Origin: Fibrobacter sp. UWH4
GTDB taxonomy: Bacteria > Fibrobacterota > Fibrobacteria > Fibrobacterales > Fibrobacteraceae
Length of the DNA: 64,000 nt
Direction: 5' to 3'
Assembly (NCBI RefSeq): GCF_900142475.1
Contig: NZ_FRAY01000005.1
Coordinates: 1-64,000, forward strand
Each line of letters starts with the position of its first letter. The stretch's first letter is position 1. A program made the translations under genes and the position numbers. Shown here piece by piece: positions 12,338-28,496 of the stretch. Below the pieces are notes generated by a model, which was not told where the DNA came from, made no database searches, and saw only the letters and a list, made by a program, of their open reading frames with translations.

Positions 12338-14539
12338 ATGTCCATAGCAAAGAAAATGACCGGCTTCCTCCTGGCGGCATCCTTGTGCTCGTTCGCGGGT
12401 CCGGTGAGCCACTTTGGCAAATTGGTGTCTTGCGGATCTGACATCTGTGGTGAAAAAACGGGTACTTCCACTCCCATTCAGCTCAAGGGACCCAGCCTTT
12501 TCTGGTCTACGGGCGATCCGGCTGTCCTTTTTGACCCGATTACGGTGGACTGGTTCACGCTCAATTTCGGAATCAGTGTCATTCGTGCCCCGATGGCTAT
12601 CAAGTACTATGCCGAAAATTCTCAGCCGATTGCTGCATCCGATGGCGCCGACAAGATGGTGACGAGCTATGGTTACCTCTCTACGCCCGATGGCGGTAGC
12701 AACTATAAGCTCTTGACCAAGAATTTAATCAAGAAGATTGTGGATGCCGCTATCGAAAACGACATCTACGTGATTGTGGACTGGCATTCCCATAATGCAC
12801 ATTCTGAAACCTCCGAAGCCGCCAATTTCTTTAAGGAAATGGCCACGGAATACAAGGATGTCCCGAACCTGATTTGGGAAATCTATAACGAACCGGTTAG
12901 TGCCTCTGCAAGCCAGATCAATTCCTATGCGGAGACCGTAACGGCGGCTATCCGTGGTACGGGTAACGAAAACCTGGTGATTGTCGGTACGAACTTCTAT
13001 TCTTCCAAGCCCAATGAACAGGCTGCACAGGGCTTGCACAATAAGTACAAGAATATTGCCTATACGCTGCACTTCTATGCTGCTGCAAACCATAACAGCT
13101 ATCAGAGTAACAAGGCGTCTGGTGCTCCCACGTTTATTACGGAATGGGGCGCAACCGGTGCCGACGGTAATGGCGGCGTGAGCGATGCTTCTGGATGGCG
13201 TTCCTGGATGGACCAGAACAAGGTGAGCGGCTGTATGTGGTTCGCCGGTGCAGATGACCAGACTTCTGCCATGTTCCCGACTGGTGCCAACACGGCAAAC
13301 CTGGATAACTACCTGAGCAGTTTCTCTGGAACGAGCTCCACGGCAGGCGTCTTTGCTGCCTTTATGGGGACCAACAAGTGGACTTCTTTCGTGCCTTCTT
13401 CTCACCCGATGGGTAATACCATCAAGGCTTCCATTGCCGAAGGTGCTTCCAAGACCTTCTCGACAGAACTTGGTATCCGCGGTACGATTTCCGAGGTATC
13501 CACGAATTCCGGTACCGTAACCAAGACGGACAACTCCATTACTTTCCAGAGTGCCGAATTCGGTTCTCCTGAAAAGGTTGTTATCAATTATTCTGTGACT
13601 TCCGGAGACGTTACGACCAAGGAACGCATCGTGATCACGATCACGGACCGTAAGCCGATTCTCAAGGATACTACGATTGCTGTCAGCTACAAGAAGGCTA
13701 CTAAGCTCACGCTTGCAAAGCTCGGTGCTGTCAACCCGCTTTCCAAGGGTGCATCTGGTCTTTCTGTGACTGCTGCCGAAGTGACTGCCGGTCAGGCTGC
13801 CGTTGTGGGTGATACCATCGTCTTTACTCCGGCTGGCGAAGGTCAAGTGACCTTGACCTATACGGCCAAGAATGCTAAGGGCTCCGCAACGGGTAAGGTC
13901 ACTCTCATTTGCGGTAACATGGCTCCGACGATTTACGCCAAGGCCAATATGGGCAGCAAACCCAATACCGCTCCTGTCGAAATTACGCTCGTGACGATGC
14001 GTGCAAACGATGTCGACGGCGATGCAGTCAAGTTCAGGATCGGTTATCTGGACCCGAACTATCCGGGTACCCTTGCCATGAGCGAAGACAGCACCAAGCT
14101 CATTTATACCCCCGATGGCGCTCATACGGGTAGTGTGACTATCCTGTCGATCTTGACCGATGGCGTTGCCGATTCCAAGATTGGTTCTGCAGTGTTCAAC
14201 TTGACGGGTAGCGGTTCGCCGATTTCTGTGGTGGCCCCGACGACGATTCCTGCCGATGTGTATGTGCCGGTATCGATCAAGCAGGTCGCCGCACCGTCTA
14301 TCGCTTCCAGCCTCAAGGTCGGTCGCGAAAACGTGACCCTGGGCCTCGTCAAGTCCGGCCGAGTCGTCGTGGATATCTACAGTGTCAATGGCCTCCGCGT
14401 CAAGACACTGCTTGACCAGAACCTTTCTGCTGGTGTGCACACCGTCGGTTTCGATGCTTCGAGCATCCCGGCTGGCACCTACATCGTGCGCATGCGTCAG
14501 GGTTCGATCACCAAGTCTCAGTGGTTCGTAAACCGCTAA
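12338..14539 (+). CDS. secreted GH5 endoglucanase with Ig/cadherin-like modules and sorting-type tail
   Basis: A 733-residue enzyme predicted to cut internal beta-1,4-glucan bonds. Signal peptide at about residues 1-20, then a GH5 barrel to about 330 with acid/base Glu185 (IYNEP) and nucleophile Glu269 (ITEWG). The entry strand LKGPSLFWS is like subfamily GH5_2. Next come cadherin- or Ig-like modules (VTLTYTAKNAKGSATGK; ANDVDGDAVKFRI) and a C-terminal domain (VDIYSVNGLRVKTLL ... GTYIVRMRQG ... WFVNR) of the type IX sorting or Fibrobacter basic-terminal kind. The gene is monocistronic, with a Crp-like site upstream and a strong terminator. GC-rich repeats flank it on both sides. Confidence 0.92.
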   Translation: MSIAKKMTGFLLAASLCSFAGPVSHFGKLVSCGSDICGEKTGTSTPIQLKGPSLFWSTGDPAVLFDPITVDWFTLNFGISVIRAPMAIKYYAENSQPIAASDGADKMVTSYGYLSTPDGGSNYKLLTKNLIKKIVDAAIENDIYVIVDWHSHNAHSETSEAANFFKEMATEYKDVPNLIWEIYNEPVSASASQINSYAETVTAAIRGTGNENLVIVGTNFYSSKPNEQAAQGLHNKYKNIAYTLHFYAAANHNSYQSNKASGAPTFITEWGATGADGNGGVSDASGWRSWMDQNKVSGCMWFAGADDQTSAMFPTGANTANLDNYLSSFSGTSSTAGVFAAFMGTNKWTSFVPSSHPMGNTIKASIAEGASKTFSTELGIRGTISEVSTNSGTVTKTDNSITFQSAEFGSPEKVVINYSVTSGDVTTKERIVITITDRKPILKDTTIAVSYKKATKLTLAKLGAVNPLSKGASGLSVTAAEVTAGQAAVVGDTIVFTPAGEGQVTLTYTAKNAKGSATGKVTLICGNMAPTIYAKANMGSKPNTAPVEITLVTMRANDVDGDAVKFRIGYLDPNYPGTLAMSEDSTKLIYTPDGAHTGSVTILSILTDGVADSKIGSAVFNLTGSGSPISVVAPTTIPADVYVPVSIKQVAAPSIASSLKVGRENVTLGLVKSGRVVVDIYSVNGLRVKTLLDQNLSAGVHTVGFDASSIPAGTYIVRMRQGSITKSQWFVNR

Positions 14540-14956: not shown

Positions 14957-16096
14957 TTACTTAAGCAGTGCGTTCAGGGTTTCGGTATCGGCCCAGGTTC
15001 CGAGTTCCTTGTCGAAGATTTCGTAGCCGCCCACGTTGGTGAATCCCCAGTAGTTCCAGCTGACGTTATACTGCTTGGCGAGCTTTACGAATTGCTGGAC
15101 CCACTTGACTCTTGATTTGATTCCGCCGCATTCCGTTGCGCCGAATTCGCCGATGTTGATGGGGAGTCCGCCCGGATAGAGTTCGTCGGCAAGGCTGCGC
15201 ATCTTTTCGAAGTCTTCCGTCATTTTGGTGATTTCGCTGGTCGTGCCTTCCCATGTTGTAATCGTTTCGGGGCACTGATAGTTTTCGCCCTGCAAGGCGT
15301 ACTGTGCCGGAACGTAGTAATGCGGTGTAAAGATGATGTTGCCGTCTGCGGGGAGCTGCAGCTTGCGGATACCTGTATAGGCGTTGTAGTCGTTGCAGCC
15401 GAACATAACGGTCCTTCCGGGATTCAGCTGCCTAATAATCGGGAACACGGTCGCGATCATCTTGTTATGGGCATCCGGCGTGACGCCTTCTCTCGGTTCG
15501 TTGAACAGTTCGAATACCAGCCACTGGTCGCTCACGTCGGCAAAGTAGGTGGCGACCTGTTGCCAGATGCCTGCGATGCGGGCGATGTGCGCATCTTGGT
15601 TGGCGGCGTCCGTGTCCGTCAGGAAAGACTGGTGGTGGTGCATGTTGATAATGGCCACGAGTCCTGCGGCGTTGATCCAGCCGACCACTTCCTTCACGCG
15701 GGCGAGATATTCGGGTGCGATGGTGTAGGGCGCTTCGTTTTCAGCTTCCAGGTCCCAACGGACCGGGAGGCGGATGGAGTTGAACCCGGCGGCGGCAATC
15801 GCCTGCACCTGACTCAGTTCCACGGGACCTGCGCCCCAGCAGCTTTCGCAGGTGGCATCGAAGGTGTTGCCCATGTTGATGCCCTTGCCGATGCGGGCGT
15901 TCATCGCTTTGCCCAGGGAGTAGTCGATGGCCTGTTTTTGTGGGGTCTGGGATCCGCTAGAAATACTGCTAGAAGAGTCTTCTTTCGAATCCTTTTGGGC
16001 CGCGGTAATGTTGCCATCGCCATCGGAGCCGCCACAGGCGCTAAGCGAGAAAGCGAGCGCCGCCAATAAAGTAAGGGATGTGTTCTTGATATTCAT
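14957..16096 (-). CDS. lipoprotein GH5 endoglucanase
   Basis: A 379-residue lipoprotein (lipobox LSAC, Cys21) with a short Ser-rich linker and a single GH5 domain. GINMGNTFDA is the usual N-terminal strand, acid/base Glu200 is in ELFNEP and nucleophile Glu317 in IGEFGATE; NMHHHQS carries conserved histidines. No extra binding module is visible. Lipidation should hold it at the outer membrane, unlike the two secreted GH5 enzymes of the locus. It is transcribed away from the barrel operon, sharing a 216-base divergent promoter region with it. Confidence 0.93.
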   Translation of the reverse strand: MNIKNTSLTLLAALAFSLSACGGSDGDGNITAAQKDSKEDSSSSISSGSQTPQKQAIDYSLGKAMNARIGKGINMGNTFDATCESCWGAGPVELSQVQAIAAAGFNSIRLPVRWDLEAENEAPYTIAPEYLARVKEVVGWINAAGLVAIINMHHHQSFLTDTDAANQDAHIARIAGIWQQVATYFADVSDQWLVFELFNEPREGVTPDAHNKMIATVFPIIRQLNPGRTVMFGCNDYNAYTGIRKLQLPADGNIIFTPHYYVPAQYALQGENYQCPETITTWEGTTSEITKMTEDFEKMRSLADELYPGGLPINIGEFGATECGGIKSRVKWVQQFVKLAKQYNVSWNYWGFTNVGGYEIFDKELGTWADTETLNALLK

Positions 16097-16150
16097 ACTC
16101 TTAATCTAAATTTATTTTTTTACAAAGGGAATGATTGGCTTTTTTTTGTG

Positions 16151-16296
16151 GTTTACCTGTGTAAACGCAAATGTGCTAGGCGATGATTATTTGTCGCCTT
16201 TAAAAATCTATACTTACCATGGCTAAAAGTGCGGAAATGTGGCTTATTAAAGTAATTTAACACTCGTTTATGAGAAAAATAAATTAAATTTCCGCA
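16151..16296. promoter_or_regulatory. palindromes in the divergent GH5 / barrel-operon promoter region
   Basis: GTTTACCTGTGTAAAC (16151-16166) has perfect 6-bp arms. GGCGA and TCGCC bracket 16178-16197. TGCGGAAAT (16230-16238) and ATTTCCGCA (16288-16296) form a 9-bp inverted repeat with a 49-base gap, the second arm ending 17 bases before the operon start. They could be operators for either promoter; no regulator is assigned. Confidence 0.4.
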
Positions 16297-16312
16297 TGAT
16301 TGGAGATTTTCT

Positions 16313-17038
16313 ATGCGAATACCATCTTTTGCTATCGCTGCAGTTTTGACATCAGTGTCCATTGCTTCGGCTAGTTTTAGTGATTACCGCGACCGTGACG
16401 TGTTGCGCTTTACTCCCAAGGAACCTAAGCCGTTCCAGCAGAATAAGGATGTCGCCTCGATTGTGATGCGCGAAGGCATTCCTCGCGGCGGTGGATACAC
16501 CTACCAGTATCCCCGTGAAAACCCCGAACCGTTTATGACCGATGCCGCCGGTGCCATGGAAGGCGATCTGGCAATGCAGGTCGAACTTATTGCCAGTGAC
16601 TATTCCGGCGTGGCTATCTGTATTGCGGGTTCTGTCGACCTGACCCCGTATTTCGAAGATGGTGCCCTGGAATTCTGGATCAAGGGTGCCGAAGGCGGTG
16701 AAAACGCCCTGTTTGTGCTTCTGGACGACGGCGTCAAGAGCAACGGCGAATCCCTCCAGGTGAAGCTCCGTTCCAAGAGCTTCGGTGACATTACCAAGGA
16801 ATGGAAACACTTCAGCATCCCCCTCAAGACCTTCGGCGAGACCGGTGTGTACTGGGATGCCAAGAACACCCGCGAAGTCATGCTCCCGTTCAGCTGGGCA
16901 AACTTCAAGGGTTTCCGTATCGAAGTCCGTAAAGACGAAAACACCGCGTTTAAGGTCTGGCTGGATGATATCGTCATCAAGAAGACGATGCCTGAATACA
17001 TGGGCCCGGCCAACTATCCGTTCCGCAATGAGTTTTAA
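16313..17038 (+). CDS. exported carbohydrate-binding-like (galactose-binding fold) protein, first gene of the barrel operon
   Basis: A 241-residue protein with a signal peptide (cleavage near ASASF). The rest is one beta-sandwich-like domain: GALEFWIKGAEGG, WKHFSIPLKTF and FKGFRIEVRKDENTAFKVWLDDIVI follow the pattern of CBM11-like and other galactose-binding-fold modules. It has no catalytic motif and no lipobox. It is the first gene of a six-gene cluster with spacings of about 12-14 bases. A glucan-binding role at the periplasm or surface is inferred from fold and neighbours. Confidence 0.75.
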   Translation: MRIPSFAIAAVLTSVSIASASFSDYRDRDVLRFTPKEPKPFQQNKDVASIVMREGIPRGGGYTYQYPRENPEPFMTDAAGAMEGDLAMQVELIASDYSGVAICIAGSVDLTPYFEDGALEFWIKGAEGGENALFVLLDDGVKSNGESLQVKLRSKSFGDITKEWKHFSIPLKTFGETGVYWDAKNTREVMLPFSWANFKGFRIEVRKDENTAFKVWLDDIVIKKTMPEYMGPANYPFRNEF

Positions 17039-17049
17039 TGAGGATTTTC

Positions 17050-19281
17050 ATGCATAAAAGAATAAGCTGCTTAGCTTTGGGCTTATTGGCCGCTGCTTCA
17101 TGGGCTGTCGAAACTCCCGAAGAACAACTGGAACGTGTGGATGCCCGCATGGACTCCTTGGCGGAATATGCCGCTTCTACCGTTGTCGGTAAGGACGACC
17201 GTCCGGTTGCCATCTCGGGCGACCTGACCATCCGCCTCAAGCATTTCGACTATTACGAATCTTCCGACTTGCAGATGAACGACCGTCAGCGTACGCTCAT
17301 CCAGTCTGCACTGAACGTGGGTATCGTCGTTTCCCCGTCTTCGTTCTTGACGGTGTTCTCCAACCTCTACCTGCCGTTCGACTTCTCCGGCTACTTCGAG
17401 AACAGCAACGCGACTGCTCCGAACTCCGGCGAATTCAACCACGCACAGCGCGTCCCGTTTGACCACTGGACCGACTACTACGGTGTTTCCACCAACGAAA
17501 ACATGCTGGCCGGTATCGATATCCGTGCAGGCGGCTTTGGTGCGACCCTCCAGGCCGGTGGCGTTATCTGGGCGAATAGTAGCCCCCTTACCATGTGGGA
17601 ACGCGAAACCATGGCCCGCTTCGCTTCGCAGTACGAAACCTTCGAAGACGAAAAGGTCGTGAGTACCTACTATAAAGAAAAGAACTTCCACCCGGTCAAG
17701 GAAGGTGGCCGTGCATTCTGGACCAACCGTTCCTTCGGTGGTATCTTCCTCGATGTGCACACCTTGCCGTACAACATGAAGGCTCAGTTCATGCTGTCCC
17801 AGCCGATGGATGCCGACATCGCGACCCGCGACGGTACCAGAATGTTGGGTGGCCAGCCGGGCGAACTGGAAATGGTCGGTACCTACGACTTTGACGGTAT
17901 GGTCTATCACGGCCGCATCGCCAAGGAAAAGATCCAGGTGGCCGGTGCCGACATGACCGTCGGTGCGAACTATATGGGTGTCGATTTCGAAAATACCGCT
18001 ATCTACGAACCGGAATACTCCTTCAAGGATGCCGACGGAAACGCCTACGTTGTCGACAACCATGTGGCCTCTATCGACATCAAGGGTAACCTCACTCCCA
18101 AGTTCTACTTGATGATGGACCTCGCCTTGAGCTGGGACGATTCCACGAAGTTCAAGCAGATCGAAAGTGACGAAATCTACGCCAAGAACGAAAAGGAATA
18201 CTACTCCAGCGGCAGTTCCTCTCCGGCTTTCGGCCTCTACATCAAGGCCCAGGACAAGCACTGGGAACCCATCACTCTCGAAGCGGTCTACTTGACTCCG
18301 GACTTCTATTCTCCCTTCGGTATGACTGATCCGTCCCGCTACCGCACCTGGCGCCAGGACAAGTTCTATGTCGGCGCGGGTACCTTCCGCTACGGTCCGA
18401 ACATGGTCGGTGCCAATATCAAGGTGGAACCGCAGATCGAACTCGGCCGTTTCGACGTGCAGTACGGCATTCATCGCCAGATCGAAAAGGGCGACGACAT
18501 GATCGACTTCAAGTACAACCTGAACGGCCGTGCCATGTGGGAATCCTCCAACTCCTGGACCAAGTTCAAGACCCTTTATACGGCTGACTCCGGTAACGGT
18601 AACGACAAGGCCCGTAATGTGGCCCGCGTGGGTGCCAAGTCCACCAACAAGCTCAACAACCTCGAAGGTGGTCTCCGCGGCGGTACCTGGGAACTCTGGG
18701 AAGGCTTCGTGCCTTATAACTCCGCCGAAGAAGCTGCTACCGAAGAAGCTCCGCAGCATGTCAAGTGGAACGTCAGCCTGGTTCTCGATGCCGGTTACGA
18801 AGTGGGTCACTTCTTCGGTATCCAGCGTAATATCATGATGTCCGTCTATACGGCTCTGTCCGGCGTTTCCACCTCCTTCTCTCCGCTTGCCTACAGCGCA
18901 AACCAGAAGGACATGCTCGCTTGGGACTTGTTCATTCAGTCTGAACCGGCTGTGGCCATCACCTCCACGATTCACGGCTTGCTGATCCTCGGCCTCGAAA
19001 AGATCTGCGCCCCCAACGCCTATGTTATCCGTACGGTCGACGCCAACCTGCCGAAGCAGGGTTCGACTTACACGGCCGCTTATAAGAACGGCGCCTTCAT
19101 TTACGAAGAAGCCCCGATTAACATTACACAGACAGCTCTTGGTTTCGGTCTCGACTGGGACTTCACTCCCCGCGCAGGCTTGCATTTCCGCTACAAGTGG
19201 ATGACCAGCTCCGACGAATTCCTCCCGGAAAACGACTGGAAGGGCCATTACTTCGCTGTTGAAACAAAGATGTGGTTCTAG
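17050..19281 (+). CDS. large outer-membrane beta-barrel protein 1
   Basis: I chose the ATG at 17050 because AGGA lies five bases before it; the open frame also allows an ATG at 17038 that overlaps the previous stop. The 743-residue product has a signal peptide (ends near SWAVE), a short N-terminal helix (EEQLERVDARMDSLAEY) and then alternating amphipathic strands rich in aromatic residues, ending in Phe (VETKMWF), as expected for a Bam-inserted barrel. SSPLTMWERE aligns with SPLTVYMPG and TPLTVYQPM in the next two proteins, suggesting a paralogous trio. I know no named family. It may be a porin or a surface scaffold for glucan binding. Confidence 0.8.
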   Translation: MHKRISCLALGLLAAASWAVETPEEQLERVDARMDSLAEYAASTVVGKDDRPVAISGDLTIRLKHFDYYESSDLQMNDRQRTLIQSALNVGIVVSPSSFLTVFSNLYLPFDFSGYFENSNATAPNSGEFNHAQRVPFDHWTDYYGVSTNENMLAGIDIRAGGFGATLQAGGVIWANSSPLTMWERETMARFASQYETFEDEKVVSTYYKEKNFHPVKEGGRAFWTNRSFGGIFLDVHTLPYNMKAQFMLSQPMDADIATRDGTRMLGGQPGELEMVGTYDFDGMVYHGRIAKEKIQVAGADMTVGANYMGVDFENTAIYEPEYSFKDADGNAYVVDNHVASIDIKGNLTPKFYLMMDLALSWDDSTKFKQIESDEIYAKNEKEYYSSGSSSPAFGLYIKAQDKHWEPITLEAVYLTPDFYSPFGMTDPSRYRTWRQDKFYVGAGTFRYGPNMVGANIKVEPQIELGRFDVQYGIHRQIEKGDDMIDFKYNLNGRAMWESSNSWTKFKTLYTADSGNGNDKARNVARVGAKSTNKLNNLEGGLRGGTWELWEGFVPYNSAEEAATEEAPQHVKWNVSLVLDAGYEVGHFFGIQRNIMMSVYTALSGVSTSFSPLAYSANQKDMLAWDLFIQSEPAVAITSTIHGLLILGLEKICAPNAYVIRTVDANLPKQGSTYTAAYKNGAFIYEEAPINITQTALGFGLDWDFTPRAGLHFRYKWMTSSDEFLPENDWKGHYFAVETKMWF

Positions 19282-19293
19282 TAGAGGTTAAGT

Positions 19294-21621
19294 ATGTTAC
19301 AAAGACTCATTTTTGGTTTGCTCTCTGTTTCCGCAATCGCTTCTGCTACCGCAATTGCCGACAATCAGGCTAAGATAGACAGTACCGTGGACGCCATCGA
19401 GTCCCGCAAGGGTGTCGATATCGGCGGTACGGTCCGTGCCGTCTACAACAAGTCCAACGTGGAATCCGACCAGGACGTGAACGGTTTCAACACGCTCCCG
19501 GACCGCGAAATTGCTGAATTTGTCCAGTTAGACCTGGATATGCACTTCCGTCCGTGGGATTTTGTGGGGGCGAATATCGTGCTCCGCCTGGGTGCAGGCA
19601 TGCAGGACTACTTCGCGAACTCCGCTACCATGGTGAATGCCCCCTGGATTAACCTCGAAGGCAACATCGGTAAGAATTTCCACTGGACCGCGGGTGATTT
19701 CCGTCAGCAGTATTCTCCGTTGACCGTGTACATGCCCGGCGTCGACATCATGTACGAACCGACGATTTTTGCACGTAACCGCGAGATGGCTCAGAAGGAA
19801 GCCTTTATCGAAGGCAACCAGCGCAATCTGCAGGGTCTCAACCTCCAGTTCCGTGCGGACATGGGCCCGACCTTGGGTGAACTCCGTGCTGAAGGTTTCT
19901 TTGCCCGCCTCCGCCGCGCCGAACGTCTCGATACGACCGGTGCCGAAGGCAACCTCCTCCCCGGCGAAGATATCTGGGGCGCTTCTCAGGCAGGTACATT
20001 TGACAAGTACGCCCTGGCGGCCAACTTGGAACTGTATCCTCTGAACAAGAACCTGATGCTCGGTGTGACCTTCCTGGATGTCTGGGATGACGAAGACTCC
20101 AAGGCCTACACCTACTACAAGAACGACCTTTACAAGGCTAACGGTGGTTCTGACTCCAGGTATACCTATATCAGGAAGCCGATCAACTTCCATGACTCCC
20201 TGCCTCAGTCCACCCAGGTGATTGCTGGCCGTATCGGTGCCGACATTGCCGGACTCATGGGCAACAAGAGCTTGATCGCCGACTTGACCGGTGAAGTCGC
20301 CTACTCGATGGACAAGATTTACACCGAAGCTTCGGCGGTTGCCGTTGGCATGGTGCCTCAGTATGACGAATACAACTTGCCCGTTCTCGATGAAGCGGGT
20401 AATCCCGCTATGGCCGAAGGTCCCATTGTTTTCAGGGATGAAGCCGGAAACATCTACGATACGCTCCGTACCATTACCTCCGAAGACGAAATCGAGAAGG
20501 GCCTCGCCATTAACGCGAACCTGAATGTCGGTTACAAGACGGATAGCTGGATGGCCAAGGTCTCCGTGGATTACATCCGCAACGACTCTAGCTGGTACAA
20601 CTCTCTTGCTCAGTCCCCGTCTTTCATCGCGACTCGCGTCATGAACTCCGACAAGGATGCCGACTTGACCAAGTACGGTCCGTACGCTCCGCTGTATTCC
20701 ACCTTCGACGCTCTCTACTTCTTTACGCCGAAGCATTCTCCCGTTTCCCAGTACCTGACGAACGATGACGCCGGTATGGAAAATGGCCAGACCAAGAGCT
20801 ACAACATTGCTCCGTACTCCAAGACCTCATACACCACGGCGACCTACACCCGCAAGGAACTCGCCCTGATCGACGAACTCTCTGACGCCAACATCCAGAT
20901 GGCCTTGCCCAACGGTCTTGCGACCACGAACCGTACCGGTGTCCGCGCAAACCTGGTGGCAGGTTACGGTAAGGATAACTTGGTTGAAGTTCAGGGCTTG
21001 TTCACCAAGATGGACCAGGTTGCCGGTATGGGCGGCCTCGATGCTGCCTCTTACACGGAATTCGGCGGTGGTGCCAAGATCGATGTTCTTGGCCTGCTCG
21101 GATTTAGCTTGCCGCTGGAATTGAGCGGTAGCTACAAGCATGCCGAACGTTCCATTTCCAGTGCCGAGTTCAAGACGGACTTCATCAATGCCGGTCTCTA
21201 TGCCCGCTACTGGAAGCGCCTCGGTATTTCTGCCGGCTTCCAGATGATCAACGCCGAACTCAATGCGGCTGGTGCCCTGATGCAGGAACTGGCTATGAGC
21301 AACCTCAAGGTTTCCGTGGCTCCTGTGATGACGGGTAAGCAGATGCAGTGGATGGTCGGTCTCGACTACACGCTTGCTCCGCATGCCTGGTTGGCCATCA
21401 ATTACGGACAGGCTACCGTCAAGAATACCTACTCGGTCGTGGGCCTGGGTGGAACCTTGCTGGGTGGCGAGTACAGTGCCAGCGACAACAGCTTTGTGCC
21501 GGCAACAGAGACGAACCTTCCTGACTATGTCGCTATCGAGAACCGCGAATCTCAGGCGACCGAACTTGAACATGAATTCACCCGTAGCATCCTTCAGGCT
21601 ACAATCAACGTAGAGTTCTAA
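19294..21621 (+). CDS. large outer-membrane beta-barrel protein 2
   Basis: A 775-residue protein starting 12 bases after barrel 1. Signal peptide (MLQRLIFGLLSVSAIASA), a helix with DNQAKIDSTVDAIESRKG, then barrel-like strands and a C-terminal Phe (ATINVEF). The block SPLTVYMPGVDIMYEPTIFA matches TPLTVYQPMPDLIFEPTILA in barrel 3, followed in both by an NREMA/HRAEV stretch and a strand ending ARLRR or ARIRN. Acidic loops (DVWDDEDSK) could bind Ca2+ or sugars. It is neither SusC-like (no plug domain or TonB box seen) nor OmpA-like. Confidence 0.8.
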   Translation: MLQRLIFGLLSVSAIASATAIADNQAKIDSTVDAIESRKGVDIGGTVRAVYNKSNVESDQDVNGFNTLPDREIAEFVQLDLDMHFRPWDFVGANIVLRLGAGMQDYFANSATMVNAPWINLEGNIGKNFHWTAGDFRQQYSPLTVYMPGVDIMYEPTIFARNREMAQKEAFIEGNQRNLQGLNLQFRADMGPTLGELRAEGFFARLRRAERLDTTGAEGNLLPGEDIWGASQAGTFDKYALAANLELYPLNKNLMLGVTFLDVWDDEDSKAYTYYKNDLYKANGGSDSRYTYIRKPINFHDSLPQSTQVIAGRIGADIAGLMGNKSLIADLTGEVAYSMDKIYTEASAVAVGMVPQYDEYNLPVLDEAGNPAMAEGPIVFRDEAGNIYDTLRTITSEDEIEKGLAINANLNVGYKTDSWMAKVSVDYIRNDSSWYNSLAQSPSFIATRVMNSDKDADLTKYGPYAPLYSTFDALYFFTPKHSPVSQYLTNDDAGMENGQTKSYNIAPYSKTSYTTATYTRKELALIDELSDANIQMALPNGLATTNRTGVRANLVAGYGKDNLVEVQGLFTKMDQVAGMGGLDAASYTEFGGGAKIDVLGLLGFSLPLELSGSYKHAERSISSAEFKTDFINAGLYARYWKRLGISAGFQMINAELNAAGALMQELAMSNLKVSVAPVMTGKQMQWMVGLDYTLAPHAWLAINYGQATVKNTYSVVGLGGTLLGGEYSASDNSFVPATETNLPDYVAIENRESQATELEHEFTRSILQATINVEF

Positions 21622-21633
21622 GGGAGGCAAACA

Positions 21634-23778
21634 ATGAATAAAGATTTGAAGCTTATGGGTTATAAATCGGTCCTCCTTTCTTCGATGCTTGCTGCTTCTG
21701 TAGCTTTCGCTCAGGAAGAAGCCAAGGATACCACTTCTGTCGAAGGTCGCCAGCTGAGCCTGCTCGAAAAGCTGACGAACTTTGAGGCCAATGCGCTCGG
21801 CTTTGCCATCAACGGTAATGCCAAGGCGGGTTACCTGCACTCGACGATTTCTTCGGACGACTTGACTAAGGACTCTCAGTTGGACGAAGCGTCTGCCTAC
21901 ACACGCATGAACATGGTGTTCTCCGTTCGCCCCAGCTCCGAAAGCGTAGCGAAGTTCAACCTGCGCTTCCACAAGGACTGGCAGAACGCTCACCGCGAAG
22001 GCAACAACTCTCCCATTACGACTTGGTGGTCTTATGACGGCTATAGCCTCAATAAGCACATGAAGTTCAACTTGGGTCACATGCGCGTGGGTTACACTCC
22101 GTTGACCGTTTACCAGCCGATGCCGGATCTGATTTTTGAACCGACGATCCTTGCTGAACACCGTGCCGAAGTCATGGCCGACAAGAATCTGGACGGCTCG
22201 AACGACCGTCTGATGCAGGGTGCGAATGTCGAGGTGACCACGGGACAGCTCGGTGCCTTTGATGACGTGAAACTTCACGGTACCTTGGCCCGTATCCGCA
22301 ACGTGGCCAAGAAAAAGGACCAGGTCTTCTTCGACTTTGACCAGTCTGACCGCTATATGACGGCCATTGCCGGTAGCGTGGACCTGAGCGGCGTTACGCT
22401 CGGCGTGAACGAAGTCTACACCTTCGACCGCGTCCGTAGCTCCCGTTCGGTCAACATGTATACCGCACTCGATACTCTTTACTACGATCTGAACAACGTG
22501 CTCAGCTTCGAACTCGGCTTTGATTCCAAGCGCCTGATGCCGGGTGATTTCCACTTCGGTATCGATGTGGAATACGCCCTGTCCTACTGGAGCGTCTACC
22601 AGGATGCATACAAGGTGACCGAGAAGAAGGCGATGTTTGTCGATACTGCCGCTGTCGTGAATCCCGATGGTTCGGTCAATGCGGACCGTGGCTACTTCAG
22701 CTACAGGACAACGACCGAAATCAAGGCTAGCATGGACCAGATTGCTACGGCTCAGAACAAGGGCGCCTTGAGGGTGAACCTCTATGCCGACGCTTCTATG
22801 GGCTCCATTGATTTCGATGCCAAGGCGAACGTGATCAAGGTCGACAAGGATTTCCAGGCTGAACTCGCCATGACTCCTGCCGTGCTGTCGAACATCCCGG
22901 TGCTCAACAGCGATGCAAGCTTCTCGACTCCCATGGCCGACGAACTGCTTTCCGGTGTCCGTTCGGGTTCTCTCGAAAACCTCTACTTCACCATGTACGA
23001 ATCGGTTCCGCTGAACTCCTCGAACATGATGGTGAAGGATCCGACCATTTACGAATCCGAATACAACCGCCTCTACAACAACTTCAAGTACGCTCAGTAC
23101 TATCGTAACGGATACAACAACATGACCTTGAAGCGTACCGACCTGCTCGCTACGACAACGGTGCTTGATCCGTCTACGAACATCGCGATGCCCTACGGTT
23201 ACGCTACTCCGAACCGTACCGGTGGCGATATCGACCTGAACGGCAAGTGGAACGACGCTGTCGCGTTCCGCGTGGTCTTCGGCCTCTATATGGCCGACTC
23301 GGTCAACCTCCTGGAAAATCCGACTGATTTCGCTACTGGCACGCAGTATATGCGTGTAGGCGGTGGCCTCAATGTCGACGTGGCCCGCCTCGCGAACCTT
23401 TCCAAGGATCTTGGCGTCAAGCTGGGCGGTTCCTACGAGATGGCTAACGAAAAGGATGGCCTGGAACGTTCTAGCTCCCGCATCATGGCCGGTCTCGACC
23501 TCTCCTGGAAGCAGGTGGCCTTGTTGACCGGTTTCCAGATGCTGAGCCTCGATTTCGGCGTGCCGTACATGGGCGTCCTGGACAAGTCCTCCGAAATGTT
23601 GCTCCTGACTGGACTTCGCTACAAGCTGGGTGCCGGTGCCTACGCTACCGTGCAGTACGGCCGCTTGACGAACACCATCGACTATATGAATATGGATATG
23701 GCTACCGGTGCAACCAGCTCGGCTAAGCTCGATATTTCCAAGAACATTATCATGGCTGACGTGACGGTCAACTTCTAA
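21634..23778 (+). CDS. large outer-membrane beta-barrel protein 3
   Basis: A 714-residue protein, 12 bases after barrel 2, preceded by GGGAGG. Signal peptide (MNKDLKLMGYKSVLLSSMLAA...), N-terminal SLLEKLTNFEANALGFAING, then barrel-type strands ending VTVNF. It shares TPLTVYQPMPDLIFEPTILA with barrel 2 and the motif MPYGYATPNRTG with LPNGLATTNRTG of barrel 2, so the two are homologous along their length. The barrel would span most of the chain. Function unknown; see the operon finding. Confidence 0.8.
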   Translation: MNKDLKLMGYKSVLLSSMLAASVAFAQEEAKDTTSVEGRQLSLLEKLTNFEANALGFAINGNAKAGYLHSTISSDDLTKDSQLDEASAYTRMNMVFSVRPSSESVAKFNLRFHKDWQNAHREGNNSPITTWWSYDGYSLNKHMKFNLGHMRVGYTPLTVYQPMPDLIFEPTILAEHRAEVMADKNLDGSNDRLMQGANVEVTTGQLGAFDDVKLHGTLARIRNVAKKKDQVFFDFDQSDRYMTAIAGSVDLSGVTLGVNEVYTFDRVRSSRSVNMYTALDTLYYDLNNVLSFELGFDSKRLMPGDFHFGIDVEYALSYWSVYQDAYKVTEKKAMFVDTAAVVNPDGSVNADRGYFSYRTTTEIKASMDQIATAQNKGALRVNLYADASMGSIDFDAKANVIKVDKDFQAELAMTPAVLSNIPVLNSDASFSTPMADELLSGVRSGSLENLYFTMYESVPLNSSNMMVKDPTIYESEYNRLYNNFKYAQYYRNGYNNMTLKRTDLLATTTVLDPSTNIAMPYGYATPNRTGGDIDLNGKWNDAVAFRVVFGLYMADSVNLLENPTDFATGTQYMRVGGGLNVDVARLANLSKDLGVKLGGSYEMANEKDGLERSSSRIMAGLDLSWKQVALLTGFQMLSLDFGVPYMGVLDKSSEMLLLTGLRYKLGAGAYATVQYGRLTNTIDYMNMDMATGATSSAKLDISKNIIMADVTVNF

Positions 23779-23791
23779 GGGGAATTTGAAT

Positions 23792-24772
23792 ATGAATAAA
23801 AAAGTAAAATTCGCACTGATCGGAACGGCCCTGGTTCTTGGTGCCTGCGCAGATTACTCCGTAGACTCCGGTGATATGGCTGTCAAGACCTCTAACGCCG
23901 GTAACGGTGTCCATGACATCGCCTACTACAAGATGCCTTCCGATTTTGACATCGATACTTATCTCGCTTTGAATCCCGATGTCAAGTATTTCCAGATTAT
24001 CGACAGGCTCCGTAACCAAGACAACAAGCCTCGACTGGATTCCATGGCAAATAACGATACCAAGGCCGAGGCTACGGCGCTCTACAATGCCGACAACGAG
24101 GCGTTCCTTGCCGACGAAGCCCTGGTCAAGAAGGCCTTCTTGATGGCCGGATACCCGGAATCCATGTGGGAAGGTGCTGCCGAACTCAACAAGGAACAGA
24201 AGGCAATCGTGCTCCGTTTCAACAAGCAGCAGATTGGTGGTGCTCCCAGTGCTGCCGAAGACGTTGCCTATCTTGATAACTTCGTGTACGATCCGGATCT
24301 TTACGCAATGCATTATGCCGCGTTCGGAATCCTTGACGGTCGCGCCTACCGTGCCTGTGCTGCCGCCGACATTACGATCCCGGCTGGTAACCCGCAGGCG
24401 GGCAAGACGGTCGTTTCGAAGGCTGCCTCGATCGAAAAGCAGGTGGCGACAATCGTGAACCTGGCCGATACCTTGGGTGCAAAGCCCCGAATCATGGACT
24501 ACAGCTCCTACTACTTCTGCCAGAATGCGGCGGATGGCCAGATTTATCCGATTTGGAATGACGAAGGTGGCGAACGCCTTGTTCGTATCCGCGAAGTTCA
24601 GGACAGCCTCCTTGTAGCGAACCCTCCTGAACCCGAACCGACCGAACCCGCTGCAGAAGAGAATCCTGCTGCTGCGGAAACGGCTTCGGAAGAAACCGCT
24701 GCGCCCGCTGCGGAAGAACCTTCCACTGAAGAACCTGCTGCAGAAGAATCTGGTGAAACTCCTGCAAATTAA
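23792..24772 (+). CDS. lipoprotein of the barrel operon
   Basis: A 326-residue lipoprotein (LGAC, Cys19). The ATG at 23792 has GGGGAA upstream; the open frame begins at a TTG two codons earlier. The body is mostly helical (NADNEAFLADEALVKKAFLMAGYP; LNKEQKAIVLRFNKQQIG) with a few cysteines, and ends in a Pro/Glu/Ala tail (PEPEPTEPAAEENPAAAE). The family is unrecognised. In an operon of barrel proteins it may be an accessory or adaptor lipoprotein, comparable in position, though not in sequence, to a SusD. Confidence 0.75.
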   Translation: MNKKVKFALIGTALVLGACADYSVDSGDMAVKTSNAGNGVHDIAYYKMPSDFDIDTYLALNPDVKYFQIIDRLRNQDNKPRLDSMANNDTKAEATALYNADNEAFLADEALVKKAFLMAGYPESMWEGAAELNKEQKAIVLRFNKQQIGGAPSAAEDVAYLDNFVYDPDLYAMHYAAFGILDGRAYRACAAADITIPAGNPQAGKTVVSKAASIEKQVATIVNLADTLGAKPRIMDYSSYYFCQNAADGQIYPIWNDEGGERLVRIREVQDSLLVANPPEPEPTEPAAEENPAAAETASEETAAPAAEEPSTEEPAAEESGETPAN

Positions 24773-24786
24773 GAAAGGGTGACGAT

Positions 24787-25836
24787 ATGTTTAAGAAATT
24801 TATTGCAACATTAGGATGCTCCGCTGCGCTGCTTTTTGCAGCTGAATTTCAGGTAGGAACATATTTCCCGAACTGGCTCCAGTATTCCCAGTTTACCCCC
24901 GAAGATGTCCGTTACGAATTCCTGACGAACATTCATTACGGCTACTTTATTCCTAGCGAAGACGGCTCCAGCCTTTCTAACTCGGACGAAAACGACAATC
25001 CCAACTTCGAAAAGCTTGCTAGCCTTTCCAAGGAAAAGAAGGTAAGCCTCACGGTGAATGTGGGCGGAGTCGGTAACGAAGAGGTCATGAAGGCCGTTGC
25101 TTCTAGTGAAGAAGCCCGTGCCGCCCTGGCCGAAGCCGCGAAGTCCCTGGTGGACCAGTACGGCATTGCCGGCATCGAACTGGACTGGATGCCCGCCGAA
25201 GAGGAAGAATATGCCTCTTGGGGTGCCATGGTGACAGCCCTTGCCGATGCAGGCGTGACTGTTTCTGCGACGGTGGCCGGTTCTCCGGATGCCGCTAAGC
25301 TTTACCCGGCAGAAGCCCTTTCCAAGCTCGCTACGGCGATGGTCATGCTGACCGACCAGATGAGCGAAGAGGAATCCAGTGTCAAGCCCAATTCCGACTT
25401 CTCCTATGCGCAGGAAGTCCTGAAGGCATACGCCGAAGCGGGAATTTCCGCTGACAAGGTGGTCCCGGTCGTTCCCATGTACGGAAAGACCTTCCTGGGG
25501 GCTACGGGTCTCGGCTCCAGCCATCAGGGTTCCGGAAGCGGTAACGAAGGCTACCTGACCTATAAAGAATTGATGAACGTGTTCGACACTCCTGACTATC
25601 AGGTCACGTTCGACGAGGCGACCCAGAGCGAGGTGGCGGTAAGCGCCTCCGAAACGATCGTCTTCAACGGAATTCCTTCAATGAAGTCTCTGGCGACTTT
25701 TGTCAAGGACAACGGATTTGGCGGAATGGCGCTCTATGACATTTCGGGTGACCACAAGGCCCCCGTCGTCTCCCTTTTGGTGACGGTAGGTCAGGTCTTG
25801 AGGCCCGAAATTAAGTATAACGCTAAGAAAAAGTGA
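24787..25836 (+). CDS. exported GH18-like protein without catalytic Glu
   Basis: A 349-residue protein with a signal peptide and a GH18-type (beta/alpha)8 barrel. FQVGTYFPNW starts strand 1, VSLTVNVGGV is the strand-3 motif, and GIAGIELDWM stands where GH18 enzymes have DGxDxDxE: Asp133 is kept, but Glu131 replaces the middle Asp and Met135 replaces the proton-donor Glu. VVPVVPMYGKTF and GGMALYDISGDH are the usual late strands. The protein is probably a glycan-binding, catalytically inactive homologue. It closes the barrel operon, 14 bases after the lipoprotein gene. Confidence 0.82.
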   Translation: MFKKFIATLGCSAALLFAAEFQVGTYFPNWLQYSQFTPEDVRYEFLTNIHYGYFIPSEDGSSLSNSDENDNPNFEKLASLSKEKKVSLTVNVGGVGNEEVMKAVASSEEARAALAEAAKSLVDQYGIAGIELDWMPAEEEEYASWGAMVTALADAGVTVSATVAGSPDAAKLYPAEALSKLATAMVMLTDQMSEEESSVKPNSDFSYAQEVLKAYAEAGISADKVVPVVPMYGKTFLGATGLGSSHQGSGSGNEGYLTYKELMNVFDTPDYQVTFDEATQSEVAVSASETIVFNGIPSMKSLATFVKDNGFGGMALYDISGDHKAPVVSLLVTVGQVLRPEIKYNAKKK

Positions 25837-25942: not shown

Positions 25943-26923
25943 ATGAAAAATCTTGCTATTTTCGGCCTTGCTGCCGCTAGCGCATCTCTGGCCGCAGGTT
26001 CCCTGTGGAACATGGATGTTGATGCATACCAGGTCCAGGTCCCGGAAACGGTTGCTTGCGACAAGACTGGTGACGACTACGGTGCAGCTTGCTACGAATC
26101 TACCGGTGGTTGGTGGTTCGCCTACGTTGGCGACGAAAAGGACGGCCAGGTGATGTCTTTCGATCCGATCGACACCAACCCGGATGGTACCTACAAGCTC
26201 ATCACTACCGATCCAACTGATGGTTCCATCATCGCGGGCGGTAACCTCGTTGAAGGCGTTGGTCTCCAGGTGACGATGTCTGCCGCTGGTGGTGCCGCTT
26301 CTACTCCGGCTATCGCTGGTATCGGCTTCAACTGGACCAAGGCTGAAACCCCGATCGACATTTCCGCTCACGCCGGTTACTGCGTTGTCTATTCTTGGAC
26401 TGGCTCTCAGGCTCTCCAGATGGAACTCGGCTGGGACGAAGCTGCTAACGGTTACGACTCCTGGTACACCTCTATGCCTGCTACTACGGGCTCTGCGACC
26501 AGCAGCCTCGATCTTCCGTGGGCAAAGTTCAAGCAGGACGGTTGGGACAAGGCTAAGCAGCCGATCACCGTTGCTCAGACCAAGGCTGTCTCTCTGAAGA
26601 TCCGTCTGAAGAACTCTACTGCTGCCGAAGTGAAGGGTGCCCTCACCATCGCCGAACTCGGTTGGTCCGGTGAATGCGGCACTGGCAAGACTGATGCTAT
26701 CGGTAGCGTCGCTAAGGCTTCTTCTGTGAAGGCCACCCTCTCTGGTCGCACCCTCTCCTTCTCTGGCGTTAAGGCTGCCAAGGCTGAAGTGCTGAACCTC
26801 CAGGGTCAGGTTGTTATGAGCGGTTCTACCGCTTCCGCAATGAACCTCGCTAGCCTCAACGCTGGTGTGTACATGGTTCGCGTTGCCGGTGCAAACCTCA
26901 CTCAGAAGATCCTCCTCAAGTAA
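25943..26923 (+). CDS. secreted carbohydrate-binding-like protein with sorting-type C-terminal domain
   Basis: A 326-residue protein with a signal peptide (ends near SLAAG). Residues 20-250 form a beta-rich domain with many Trp (GGWWFAYVG, VYSWTGSQALQMELGW), similar in style to CBM11-type or galactose-binding modules. The last 65 residues (VKATLSGRTLSFSGV, AEVLNLQGQVVMSG, GVYMVRVAG, QKILLK) are a type IX sorting-like or Fibrobacter basic-terminal domain. Codon choice is very biased (GGT, GCT, AAG, CTC), as in highly expressed genes. GAGAGAGAA precedes the start, and a strong terminator follows. It may be an abundant surface protein for cellulose adhesion. Confidence 0.78.
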   Translation: MKNLAIFGLAAASASLAAGSLWNMDVDAYQVQVPETVACDKTGDDYGAACYESTGGWWFAYVGDEKDGQVMSFDPIDTNPDGTYKLITTDPTDGSIIAGGNLVEGVGLQVTMSAAGGAASTPAIAGIGFNWTKAETPIDISAHAGYCVVYSWTGSQALQMELGWDEAANGYDSWYTSMPATTGSATSSLDLPWAKFKQDGWDKAKQPITVAQTKAVSLKIRLKNSTAAEVKGALTIAELGWSGECGTGKTDAIGSVAKASSVKATLSGRTLSFSGVKAAKAEVLNLQGQVVMSGSTASAMNLASLNAGVYMVRVAGANLTQKILLK

Positions 26924-26948
26924 TTTCTACTTGAAGTAGACTTTCAGG

Positions 26949-26978
26949 ACCCCGTCTTCGGACGGGGTTCATTTTTTT
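26949..26978 (+). terminator. terminator of the secreted binding-like protein gene
   Basis: ACCCCGTC, TTCG tetraloop, GACGGGGT, then TCATTTTTTT, 26 bases after the stop. Confidence 0.92.
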
Positions 26979-27025: not shown

Positions 27026-27128
27026 TCGGTTCCATTTGTGTACATGCAAACGCGTTTTTACTTTATTTTTTTGCTTTTTTTAATTAAATTATAGATTGAG
27101 TGTTTTGACTTTTTTTTCGAGGCTATTT

Positions 27129-28496
27129 ATGAAAAAGTATCTTCTGCCGGTATTGGGTGTTACTACGGCTATGCTGATGGCATGTTCCGACGAATCTTCT
27201 TCGCCGTCCAACGCGGTTGATCCCGGTATTGCTTCCAGCGCATCTGTTGATCCGGGCCTTCCCGCTGTTTCGAGCGACGCAAATCCCGGACTGGTTTTGT
27301 CTAGCGAAAGTTCTGCTCCCGTGGTGGATCCCGGCGCTTCGACTTACTATGCCGTGTTCCCGACACCGAACCAGTTGGCTGTGCAGACGATGTACAACAA
27401 CTGGATTGCCAAGTTCTACGTGACTTACGAAGAGGAAGTCCCGGCCTCGGAAGAACCTTACCTTGGCGCGATGGTGGAAAAACTGAAGGGTTCCGCCCGT
27501 ATCAAGTTCGACTCTCCGCTGAACACGGTGTCCGAAGGTATCGGCTACGGTATGCTGATTACCTACTTCATGAAGGACTGGGAAAAGTTCAACAGGTTGT
27601 TCAAGTATTACCAGGCGTACCCGGTGAGCGCTGCAGACGGTCTCTTCTTTATGAAGTGGATGGTCAAGGGCGACGAATTCAAGGGAGGATTCTCCGCCGA
27701 CGCAACGGGTGGCTCTGCTACGGATGCCGACCTGGACGTGATGACGGCCTTGTTCCTTGCCTATGGCGAAACGGGTAATGTTGAATACCTGAATTACGCC
27801 AAGGGCATCGCCGGTGCCATTTACAACACCGAAGTCAATGCGACCACGCACCTGTTTATGCCGGGTAACGACGGCCTGCACATGAACGACGGTTATGTCT
27901 ACAATACCAGCTACTTCTCGCTGATAGCCCTCCGTCTCGCTATTAAGTACGACACGGAACGCAGTGCCGCCTGGCAGCAGGTTCTCGATGCGACTTACGC
28001 CTATATGCTCAAGGTTCAGGCTGCTGGTAACGGCCTCTGGCCGGACTGGAGCAATGCGGACGGCATTCCGACGAACCCGGAGAACAACTCTTCGACAGGA
28101 AAGCTCTGCGACTACTTTGGTCTCGAAGGCGTGCGTATCCCGCTTCGCATAATGTGGGACTACAACTGGTTTGGTGACGACCGTGCAAAGACCATGGCCG
28201 AAACGGCTGCCAACTTTGCCTTTACCTCGACGGGTGGCGATATCACCAAGACTCTGATCAAGTATATCTACCAGGGTGAACAGCCCAAGGCCGGTTTGGG
28301 TGGCGCCCATTTCCGCGGTGCATTCTGCTCGCTGTGGACTGTTAACGCGGCTTTGTCTGCCAATACCGCAGCCTGCAACGATGTAATCCTTGCTACTCCG
28401 TTCAAGTCGACGAACTCGCTCTACTTCGAACCTTCGATGCAGATGCTCTACACGCTGTTCATCAACGGCTACTTTATCAAGTACTGGAATTATTAA
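27129..28496 (+). CDS. lipoprotein GH8 glucanase/xylanase
   Basis: A 455-residue lipoprotein. The ATG at 27129 has GAGG five bases upstream. Lipobox LMAC puts the lipidated Cys at 19, followed by a Ser/Pro/Asp-rich linker. The GH8 (alpha/alpha)6 domain has general acid Glu136 in VSEGIGYGML and the Asp-rich ATDADLDVMTAL (Asp199, Asp201, Asp203) typical of the family. GH8 members act on cellulose, xylan, lichenan or chitosan, and the choice cannot be made here. It is followed after 21 bases by a GH5 gene, probably co-transcribed, behind a Crp-like site. Confidence 0.93.
   Translation: MKKYLLPVLGVTTAMLMACSDESSSPSNAVDPGIASSASVDPGLPAVSSDANPGLVLSSESSAPVVDPGASTYYAVFPTPNQLAVQTMYNNWIAKFYVTYEEEVPASEEPYLGAMVEKLKGSARIKFDSPLNTVSEGIGYGMLITYFMKDWEKFNRLFKYYQAYPVSAADGLFFMKWMVKGDEFKGGFSADATGGSATDADLDVMTALFLAYGETGNVEYLNYAKGIAGAIYNTEVNATTHLFMPGNDGLHMNDGYVYNTSYFSLIALRLAIKYDTERSAAWQQVLDATYAYMLKVQAAGNGLWPDWSNADGIPTNPENNSSTGKLCDYFGLEGVRIPLRIMWDYNWFGDDRAKTMAETAANFAFTSTGGDITKTLIKYIYQGEQPKAGLGGAHFRGAFCSLWTVNAALSANTAACNDVILATPFKSTNSLYFEPSMQMLYTLFINGYFIKYWNY

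Follow-up and report, generated by a model that had tools for sequence, protein, structure and literature searches.

A conserved Fibrobacter operon encoding large outer-membrane barrel candidates and its proposed role in SusC/SusD-independent glycan import

A six-gene operon of Fibrobacter sp. UWH4 probably encodes the outer-membrane half of a glycan capture-and-import system that is independent of SusC and SusD and that, in Fibrobacter, would handle cellulose fragments. It occupies positions 16313-25836 on the forward strand of the DNA analysed here, a stretch of 64,000 nucleotides from contig NZ_FRAY01000005.1 (hereafter the window), and encodes, in this order, a CBM30 protein, three large proteins that we call BB1 (747 residues), BB2 (775 residues) and BB3 (714 residues), a lipoprotein and a GH18 protein. 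How cellodextrins enter the Fibrobacter cell has been stated to be unknown (PMC6851124), and models for this genus invoke outer-membrane channels without naming them (PMC3079729).

The case for import comes from the genes that accompany the barrel candidates across the Fibrobacterota. A BB1 profile matches 105 of 120 genomes and 25 of 35 sampled genera of this phylum, usually with one copy; the other 10 genera have no match. The unit conserved throughout the phylum is the pair BB1-BB2 rather than the trio, and BB3 is, judged by alignment and tree, a paralogue of BB2. Outside the Fibrobacteraceae, the usual gene order is an ATP-binding cassette (ABC) importer, BB1, BB2 and a Cel51A-like cellulase of about 1,050 residues, which combines CBM30, CBM11 and a GH51/GH79-like domain and carries a lipobox at about half of the linked loci. 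At 14 of the 23 Cel51A-type loci outside the Fibrobacteraceae (families f7, f10 and f12), the importer beside BB1-BB2 is of the Opp/Dpp type, with an SBP_bac_5 binding protein, two permeases and two ATPases, some sets being cut by contig ends; at five (family f3), a CUT1-type importer fills the same slot. Nothing speaks more strongly for a role of the barrels in uptake than this occupation of one genomic slot by two unrelated importers.

The family-5 binding protein of the Opp/Dpp-type importer has its nearest PDB relatives among sugar-type proteins of T. maritima (4pft, 4pfu, 2o7i and 4jsd; E=1e-54 to 1e-59), against only about 3e-6 for classical OppA. The best PDB matches of the CUT1 binding protein are sugar binders such as 7c63 (1e-101) and CbpB, 7x0i (2e-87). 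In the literature, including a comparison table (PMC6851124), the T. maritima family-5 proteins and CbpB are given as binders of cello- or manno-oligosaccharides. In the genome of the window, an orthologue of the family-5 binding protein (57% identity) is encoded in the same five-gene order, adjoining GH9. These five genes lie at L118:8868-14742, near the GH9 cellulase and a protein with a Fib_succ_major domain, and the importer that they encode is likely the inner-membrane partner of the barrels. At the level of genera, at least three GH9 genes are present in 24 of 26 genera with BB proteins versus 1 of 10 without (Fisher p=5e-6, phylogeny ignored; genus g4 was scored as positive via BB2 and its second genome).

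BB1 (17038..19281), BB2 (19294..21621) and BB3 (21634..23778) match no Pfam or NCBIfam family above cut-off, and none of them matches a solved porin structure by sequence up to E=10; an Endonuclease_1 match of BB3 in Pfam (E=0.05) was rejected as noise. To the extent that curated families and solved structures can be matched by sequence, they fall outside the described transporter and porin families, as the reading in the first-pass annotation of the window, made from its letters alone, required. The assignment to the outer membrane draws mainly on the C-terminus. Its last residue is aromatic, nearly always Phe, in 71 of 72 BB1, 71 of 73 BB2 and 44 of 45 BB3 homologues, and the hydrophobic alternation typical of outer-membrane proteins is present in 61 of 72, 50 of 73 and 42 of 45, respectively. 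Among near-full-length barrels, 183 of 185 end in an aromatic residue; of 246 control proteins encoded at these loci, 11 do. In an amphipathic-strand test on deep alignments, BB2 is significant (p=0.0025) and control families have no excess, and a few members of the alignments (4 of 27 and 1 of 15) weakly match the generic Pfam model OMP_b-brl. The three proteins are therefore treated here as candidates for outer-membrane barrels with a C-terminal β-signal of the β-barrel assembly machinery type. BB1 and BB2 align co-linearly over 615 columns in hhalign (E=1.6e-4, probability 50%), which is suggestive only, and may be remote homologues.

By family, none of these proteins belongs to a Sus system. 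Neither the TonB-receptor family PF00593 nor its plug is matched by any member of the BB1, BB2 or BB3 alignments in family scans, and the whole genome holds only two PF00593 barrels, neither of them at this locus. SusD_RagB (PF07980) gives zero matches genome-wide, with a control Bacteroides genome positive (PF14322 and PF12741 were not run genome-wide). An identity as TonB receptor or SusC/SusD pair was accordingly rejected, in agreement with the first-pass annotation, which had seen neither SusC nor SusD here.

The remaining products of the operon may serve in glycan binding. Gene 1, previously described as a binding-like exported protein, encodes an exported CBM30 protein of 241 residues (16313..17038; PF21582, E=1.9e-17, 64.1 bits against a cut-off of 27), which also matches the PDB CBM30 structures 1wmx and 2c24 (E=3e-6). 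It is the best-conserved gene of the block, with about 74-79% identity to the window in species whose barrels have about 37-55% and the fast-evolving lipoprotein, the least conserved, about 25%; the CBM30 protein and its orthologues share a near-constant YPFRNE motif at the C-terminal end. The lipoprotein (23786..24772, with a likely ATG start at 23792) matches no Pfam or NCBIfam family; its homologues (41 listed) have a lipobox-type N-terminus with a Cys near residue 18-24. In the window, it ends in an E/A/P-rich tail (24600-24772). An E/A/P-rich extension of about 100 residues is also found at the N-terminus of some Fibrobacter BB1 proteins (L034, L035, L036, L065 and L075) and is absent from BB1 of the window.

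The GH18 protein (24787..25836; PF00704, E=4.9e-32) is predicted to be a catalytically dead pseudo-chitinase, which agrees with its earlier description as inactive-looking. In its DxxDxDxE motif, the catalytic Glu is replaced in every one of the 39 Fibrobacteraceae copies that could be read (two more are unreadable), by M in the window and by Q, I, L or V in the others, whereas all 8 copies at loci outside the family retain D-x-D-W-E. The C-terminus of the Fibrobacteraceae protein, Lys-rich in the window, frequently has a run of two to five lysines (KKK, KKKKK).

Open reading frame (ORF) calls place the six genes where the first-pass annotation had put them, and its spacing of 11-14 bases holds (gaps of 11, 12, 12, 13 and 14 bases) provided that translation starts at the internal ATGs at 17050 for BB1, giving 743 residues, and at 23792 for the lipoprotein; the longest ORF of BB1 has a one-base overlap with the stop of the CBM30 gene. 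Several of the gaps contain purine-rich stretches resembling ribosome-binding sites. A BB2 search found matches in 50 of 61 genomes, and the block is complete at 39 of 42 fetched Fibrobacteraceae loci, so that the layout must reflect more than chance; at 37 of the 42, the divergent GH5 gene (GH5b, see below) adjoins the CBM30 gene. Only close relatives were recovered by a contig scan of genomes, and no relatives by searches of plasmid and viral collections.

The Fibrobacter operon is, on the evidence of gene order and trees, of a three-barrel type with relatives at chitinase loci. In the trees, the Fibrobacteraceae barrels cluster with those of the f3 chitinase loci and of family f2, apart from the Cel51A-linked ones (support 100/100 for BB1; 99 for BB2, by SH-aLRT in a quick tree), and BB3 is confined to this subfamily. 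The f3 chitinase loci have the order CBM30-BB1-BB2-BB3-GH20-GH18-GH18; at L044, L045 and L046 (genomes G045, G046 and G048), the paralogous CBM30-BB1-BB2-BB3 set lies beside GH20 and intact GH18 chitinases, and G045 and G048 have both the chitinase-type and the cellulase-linked set in one genome. A chitin-type module may thus have been re-used for cellulose in the Fibrobacteraceae, the trees being unrooted with respect to direction.

Outside the Fibrobacterota, the BB1 profile found a single match among about 193 genomes, which led to a locus in a second phylum where tandem BB1-like (E=3e-14) and BB2-like (E=4e-42) genes lie between GH9 and CBM9/CBM11-like proteins. The BB2 profile matches 25 of 45 genomes of that phylum, and the 36 long barrel ORFs at the first locus and at 17 more that were fetched all end in Phe. 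The GH9/CBM9 type accounts for seven loci, the first included. Another three (L136, L138 and L141) have a CUT1-type binding protein and, beside the tandem barrels, a CBM11-like or galactose-binding-type lipoprotein; L136 and L141, which were scanned, encode BNR-repeat/GH74 or GH2 enzymes, including a GH74 xyloglucanase (PDB match 3e-166), and this arrangement suggests a xyloglucan locus. A CBM11-like neighbour is present at L143. At seven further loci (L144-L150), two or three barrels are accompanied by small lipoproteins that match no known family, and no obvious glycoside hydrolase adjoins them. At L120:9432-9900, the N-terminus of a BB2-like barrel resembles an S-layer-homology domain followed by a heptad-like stretch, with no Pfam match at E 0.01; it could serve in peptidoglycan tethering.

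For the operon itself, the literature on F. succinogenes S85 provides a partial counterpart. GH5b, CBM30 and GH18 of the window were matched by gene order alone to FSU_2005 (Fisuc_1523), a GH5 cellulase of confirmed activity, FSU_2007 (Fisuc_1525), a protein with CBM30 only, and FSU_2012 (Fisuc_1530), a GH18 protein reported to bind cellulose (PMC3079729). Four tags, FSU_2008-2011 (Fisuc_1526-1529), lie between CBM30 and GH18, a number that fits three barrels and a lipoprotein; we found no mention of them in the open-access papers that were searched. In S85, the CBM30 protein is found in the cell envelope on every substrate, and the GH5 enzyme on cellulose only (PMC4619616).

The scheme that we propose starts from what the computations gave directly, namely the gene content, its conservation, the outer-membrane C-terminal signal, the residue loss in GH18 and the linkage to cellulases and importers. 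From these we infer a complex, its orientation towards the surface, a channel, the inward direction of transport and the size of the substrate. BB1, BB2 and BB3, as two to three paralogous large barrels without a TonB plug, would make up a channel or channel complex selective for oligosaccharides. At its opening, cellulose or cellodextrins would be retained by the CBM30 protein, the surface lipoprotein and the GH18 protein, dead as an enzyme but lectin-like; the divergent GH5 lipoprotein would cleave cellulose close by. The fragments would then enter the periplasm, where the five-gene family-5 ABC importer would take them up. Since no plug was found, diffusion followed by ABC-driven uptake would be the simplest energy scheme. 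An ExbB/ExbD/TonB cluster of S85 rises on cellulose (PMC6851124) and could be involved in energising the barrels, but no tie to them was found here.

Several observations weigh against this scheme. Some concern the barrels themselves: in the amphipathic-strand test, BB1 is marginal (p=0.05) and BB3 not significant (p=0.13), and structure prediction, from input alignments of only 9 and 5 rows, gave low-confidence models of the barrels postulated by the first-pass annotation. The AlphaFold model of BB2 traces a meander of about 22 long strands but is of poor quality (pLDDT 43, pTM 0.47); nearly all of its 50 listed Foldseek matches are outer-membrane barrels, at a TM of about 0.25, so that it suggests a fold class only. 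The model of BB1 (pLDDT 25) is uninformative. Others concern the linkage: no importer is found nearby at three of the 23 Cel51A-type loci (L049, L110 and L113), its status is ambiguous at one (L052), the importer of the window's genome is unlinked to the barrels, genus g29 has 11 GH9 genes and no BB1, and the Fibrobacteraceae barrels are nearer to the chitinase-locus barrels than to the importer-linked ones. In the expression data from S85, co-induction with cellulases, the kind of co-expression on which the first-pass annotation had staked its reading, is not seen. There, the GH18 protein occurs in the outer membrane, and the medium contains about six-fold more of it (PMC4668043). Its gene is constitutive and belongs, with those for Cel51A and cellodextrin phosphorylase, to the CAZy genes whose expression is high and stable (PMC6204037); the protein itself is 1.3-fold less abundant on cellulose (PMC6851124). 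Together with the presence of CBM30 on all substrates (PMC4619616), this contradicts a simple co-induction on cellulose, at least for GH18.

It is conceivable, though unlikely, that the barrels form an anchoring or secretion platform, which would display or export cellulases and binding proteins without importing anything. Neighbouring genes encode type IX secretion system (T9SS) sorting domains, Cel51A is a surface-type lipoprotein at about half of the linked loci, and the two top Foldseek matches of the weak BB2 model are to the T9SS translocon SprA; this alignment is untrustworthy (TM about 0.15, root-mean-square deviation about 30 Å), and a platform of this kind would not account for the recurrent linkage to two unrelated sugar ABC importers. 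Even less probable in our view is that they are general, non-selective major porins that lie among cellulase genes by happenstance. A weak match to a homotrimeric porin model (E=1.4e-4) and the high, stable expression of the GH18 gene in the same block (PMC6204037) would fit this idea, yet in many families and in a second phylum the barrels are repeatedly linked to cellulases, CBM lipoproteins and sugar importers, and 10 of the 35 sampled Fibrobacterota genera manage without BB1.

The least probable of the alternatives is a set of oligosaccharide porins that served ancestrally, and perhaps serves still, for chitin- or peptidoglycan-derived sugar rather than cellulose. It is suggested by the grouping of the Fibrobacteraceae barrels with those of the f3 GH18/GH20 loci and by the retention of GH18 in the operon. 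Against it stand the loss of the catalytic residue of GH18 across the Fibrobacteraceae, the reported cellulose binding of that protein, the presence of CBM30 and of the divergent GH5, and the fact that cellulose is the only polysaccharide used by S85 among those tested (PMC3079729).

In its likely function, the operon is comparable to a Sus locus or to a sugar porin combined with an ABC importer, but by family it is neither, given the negative tests for SusC, SusD and the plug and the lack of a sequence match to any solved structure. As in the Sus-type polysaccharide utilisation loci of Bacteroidota, outer-membrane barrels are clustered with a surface glycan-binding protein or lipoprotein and with glycoside hydrolases (CBM30, GH18, GH5 and GH8 here, equivalents in other families), and copies of the BB proteins are paired with varied genes for the degradation of cellulose, xyloglucan or chitin. 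Unlike those loci, BB loci have no TonB-receptor/plug family and no SusD, and have two to three tandem barrels and linked, dedicated ABC importers. The first-pass annotation had compared the layout to such a locus with a barrel trio in place of the Sus pair; unrelated barrels do stand where SusC and SusD would be expected, in association with cellulose, but the core is a pair and not a trio. Likewise, its idea of a surface apparatus for cellulose gains from the linkage of BB1-BB2 to Cel51A-type cellulases and two ABC importers, which argues for import, and is qualified by a three-barrel subfamily that includes chitinase loci. LamB with MalEFGK and the chitoporin ChiP offer another parallel, as plugless outer-membrane channels linked genetically to a sugar ABC importer. 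In contrast to them, BB proteins have 700-900 residues (with about 22 predicted strands in BB2), come as tandem non-identical pairs linked to a cellulase or CBM lipoprotein, and match no solved porin by sequence. A model of cellulose-chain uptake by Fibrobacter and Cytophaga hutchinsonii likewise predicts a passage of chains or cellodextrins across the outer membrane (discussed for S85 in PMC3079729) but names no channel, whereas the BB operon is a specific candidate gene set. Finally, the BB1-BB2-linked enzyme of other families has the CBM30-CBM11-catalytic architecture of F. succinogenes Cel51A (endoglucanase 2, Fisuc_3111), whose counterpart in the window's genome is encoded alone, away from the barrels.

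Within the window, the block lies between GH5, GH5, GH8 and GH5 genes, an earlier description that Pfam matches confirm. Upstream are the GH5 cellulase GH5a (12338..14539, forward strand; PF00150, E=2.9e-41), whose position differs among species and whose C-terminus weakly matches a T9SS-type sorting domain (TIGR04183, 21.6 bits, slightly below the cut-off of 23), and, on the reverse strand and divergent from the operon, GH5b (14957..16096; PF00150, E=5.4e-47), a cellulase with a lipobox (MNIKNTSLTLLAALAFSLSAC). The 216 bases between GH5b and the operon (16097..16312) contain a weak sigma-70-like match at 16257-16285, in a region where promoter-like matches are no more numerous than in shuffled sequences. 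Downstream, 106 bases past GH18, starts a seventh gene (25943..26923, forward strand) for an exported protein of 326 residues with a T9SS sorting domain (TIGR04183, E=4.1e-7, above cut-off), which is missing at some loci. The sole good terminator, a hairpin of 10 pairs with a T run (26947..26970, forward strand), follows this gene, and the transcript may thus be longer than six genes. Next on the forward strand are GH8 (27096..28496; PF01270, E=4e-22) and GH5c with a CBM6 (28518..30290; PF00150, E=8.8e-44; PF03422, E=7.5e-8).

What is new here is a specific, conserved gene set other than SusC/SusD that is tied to sugar ABC importers phylum-wide, which makes the operon a good candidate for the gate that admits cellulose fragments in cellulose-eating rumen bacteria. 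If this reading is right, the barrels would represent a second large family of glycan-uptake barrels beside SusC/SusD, with relevance to fibre digestion in the rumen and to cellulose turnover in the environment. In a bolder extension, which we offer tentatively and hold to be rather doubtful, tandem non-identical barrels would constitute a separate class of outer-membrane glycan importers in at least two phyla that has diversified alongside SusC/SusD to handle cellulose, xyloglucan and chitin. In Fibrobacter, CBM30 and the dead GH18 would hold long cellodextrins or single cellulose chains, which the trio would thread directly into the periplasm. If this were true, such threading would explain how cellulose is digested without free cellulases or a cellulosome.

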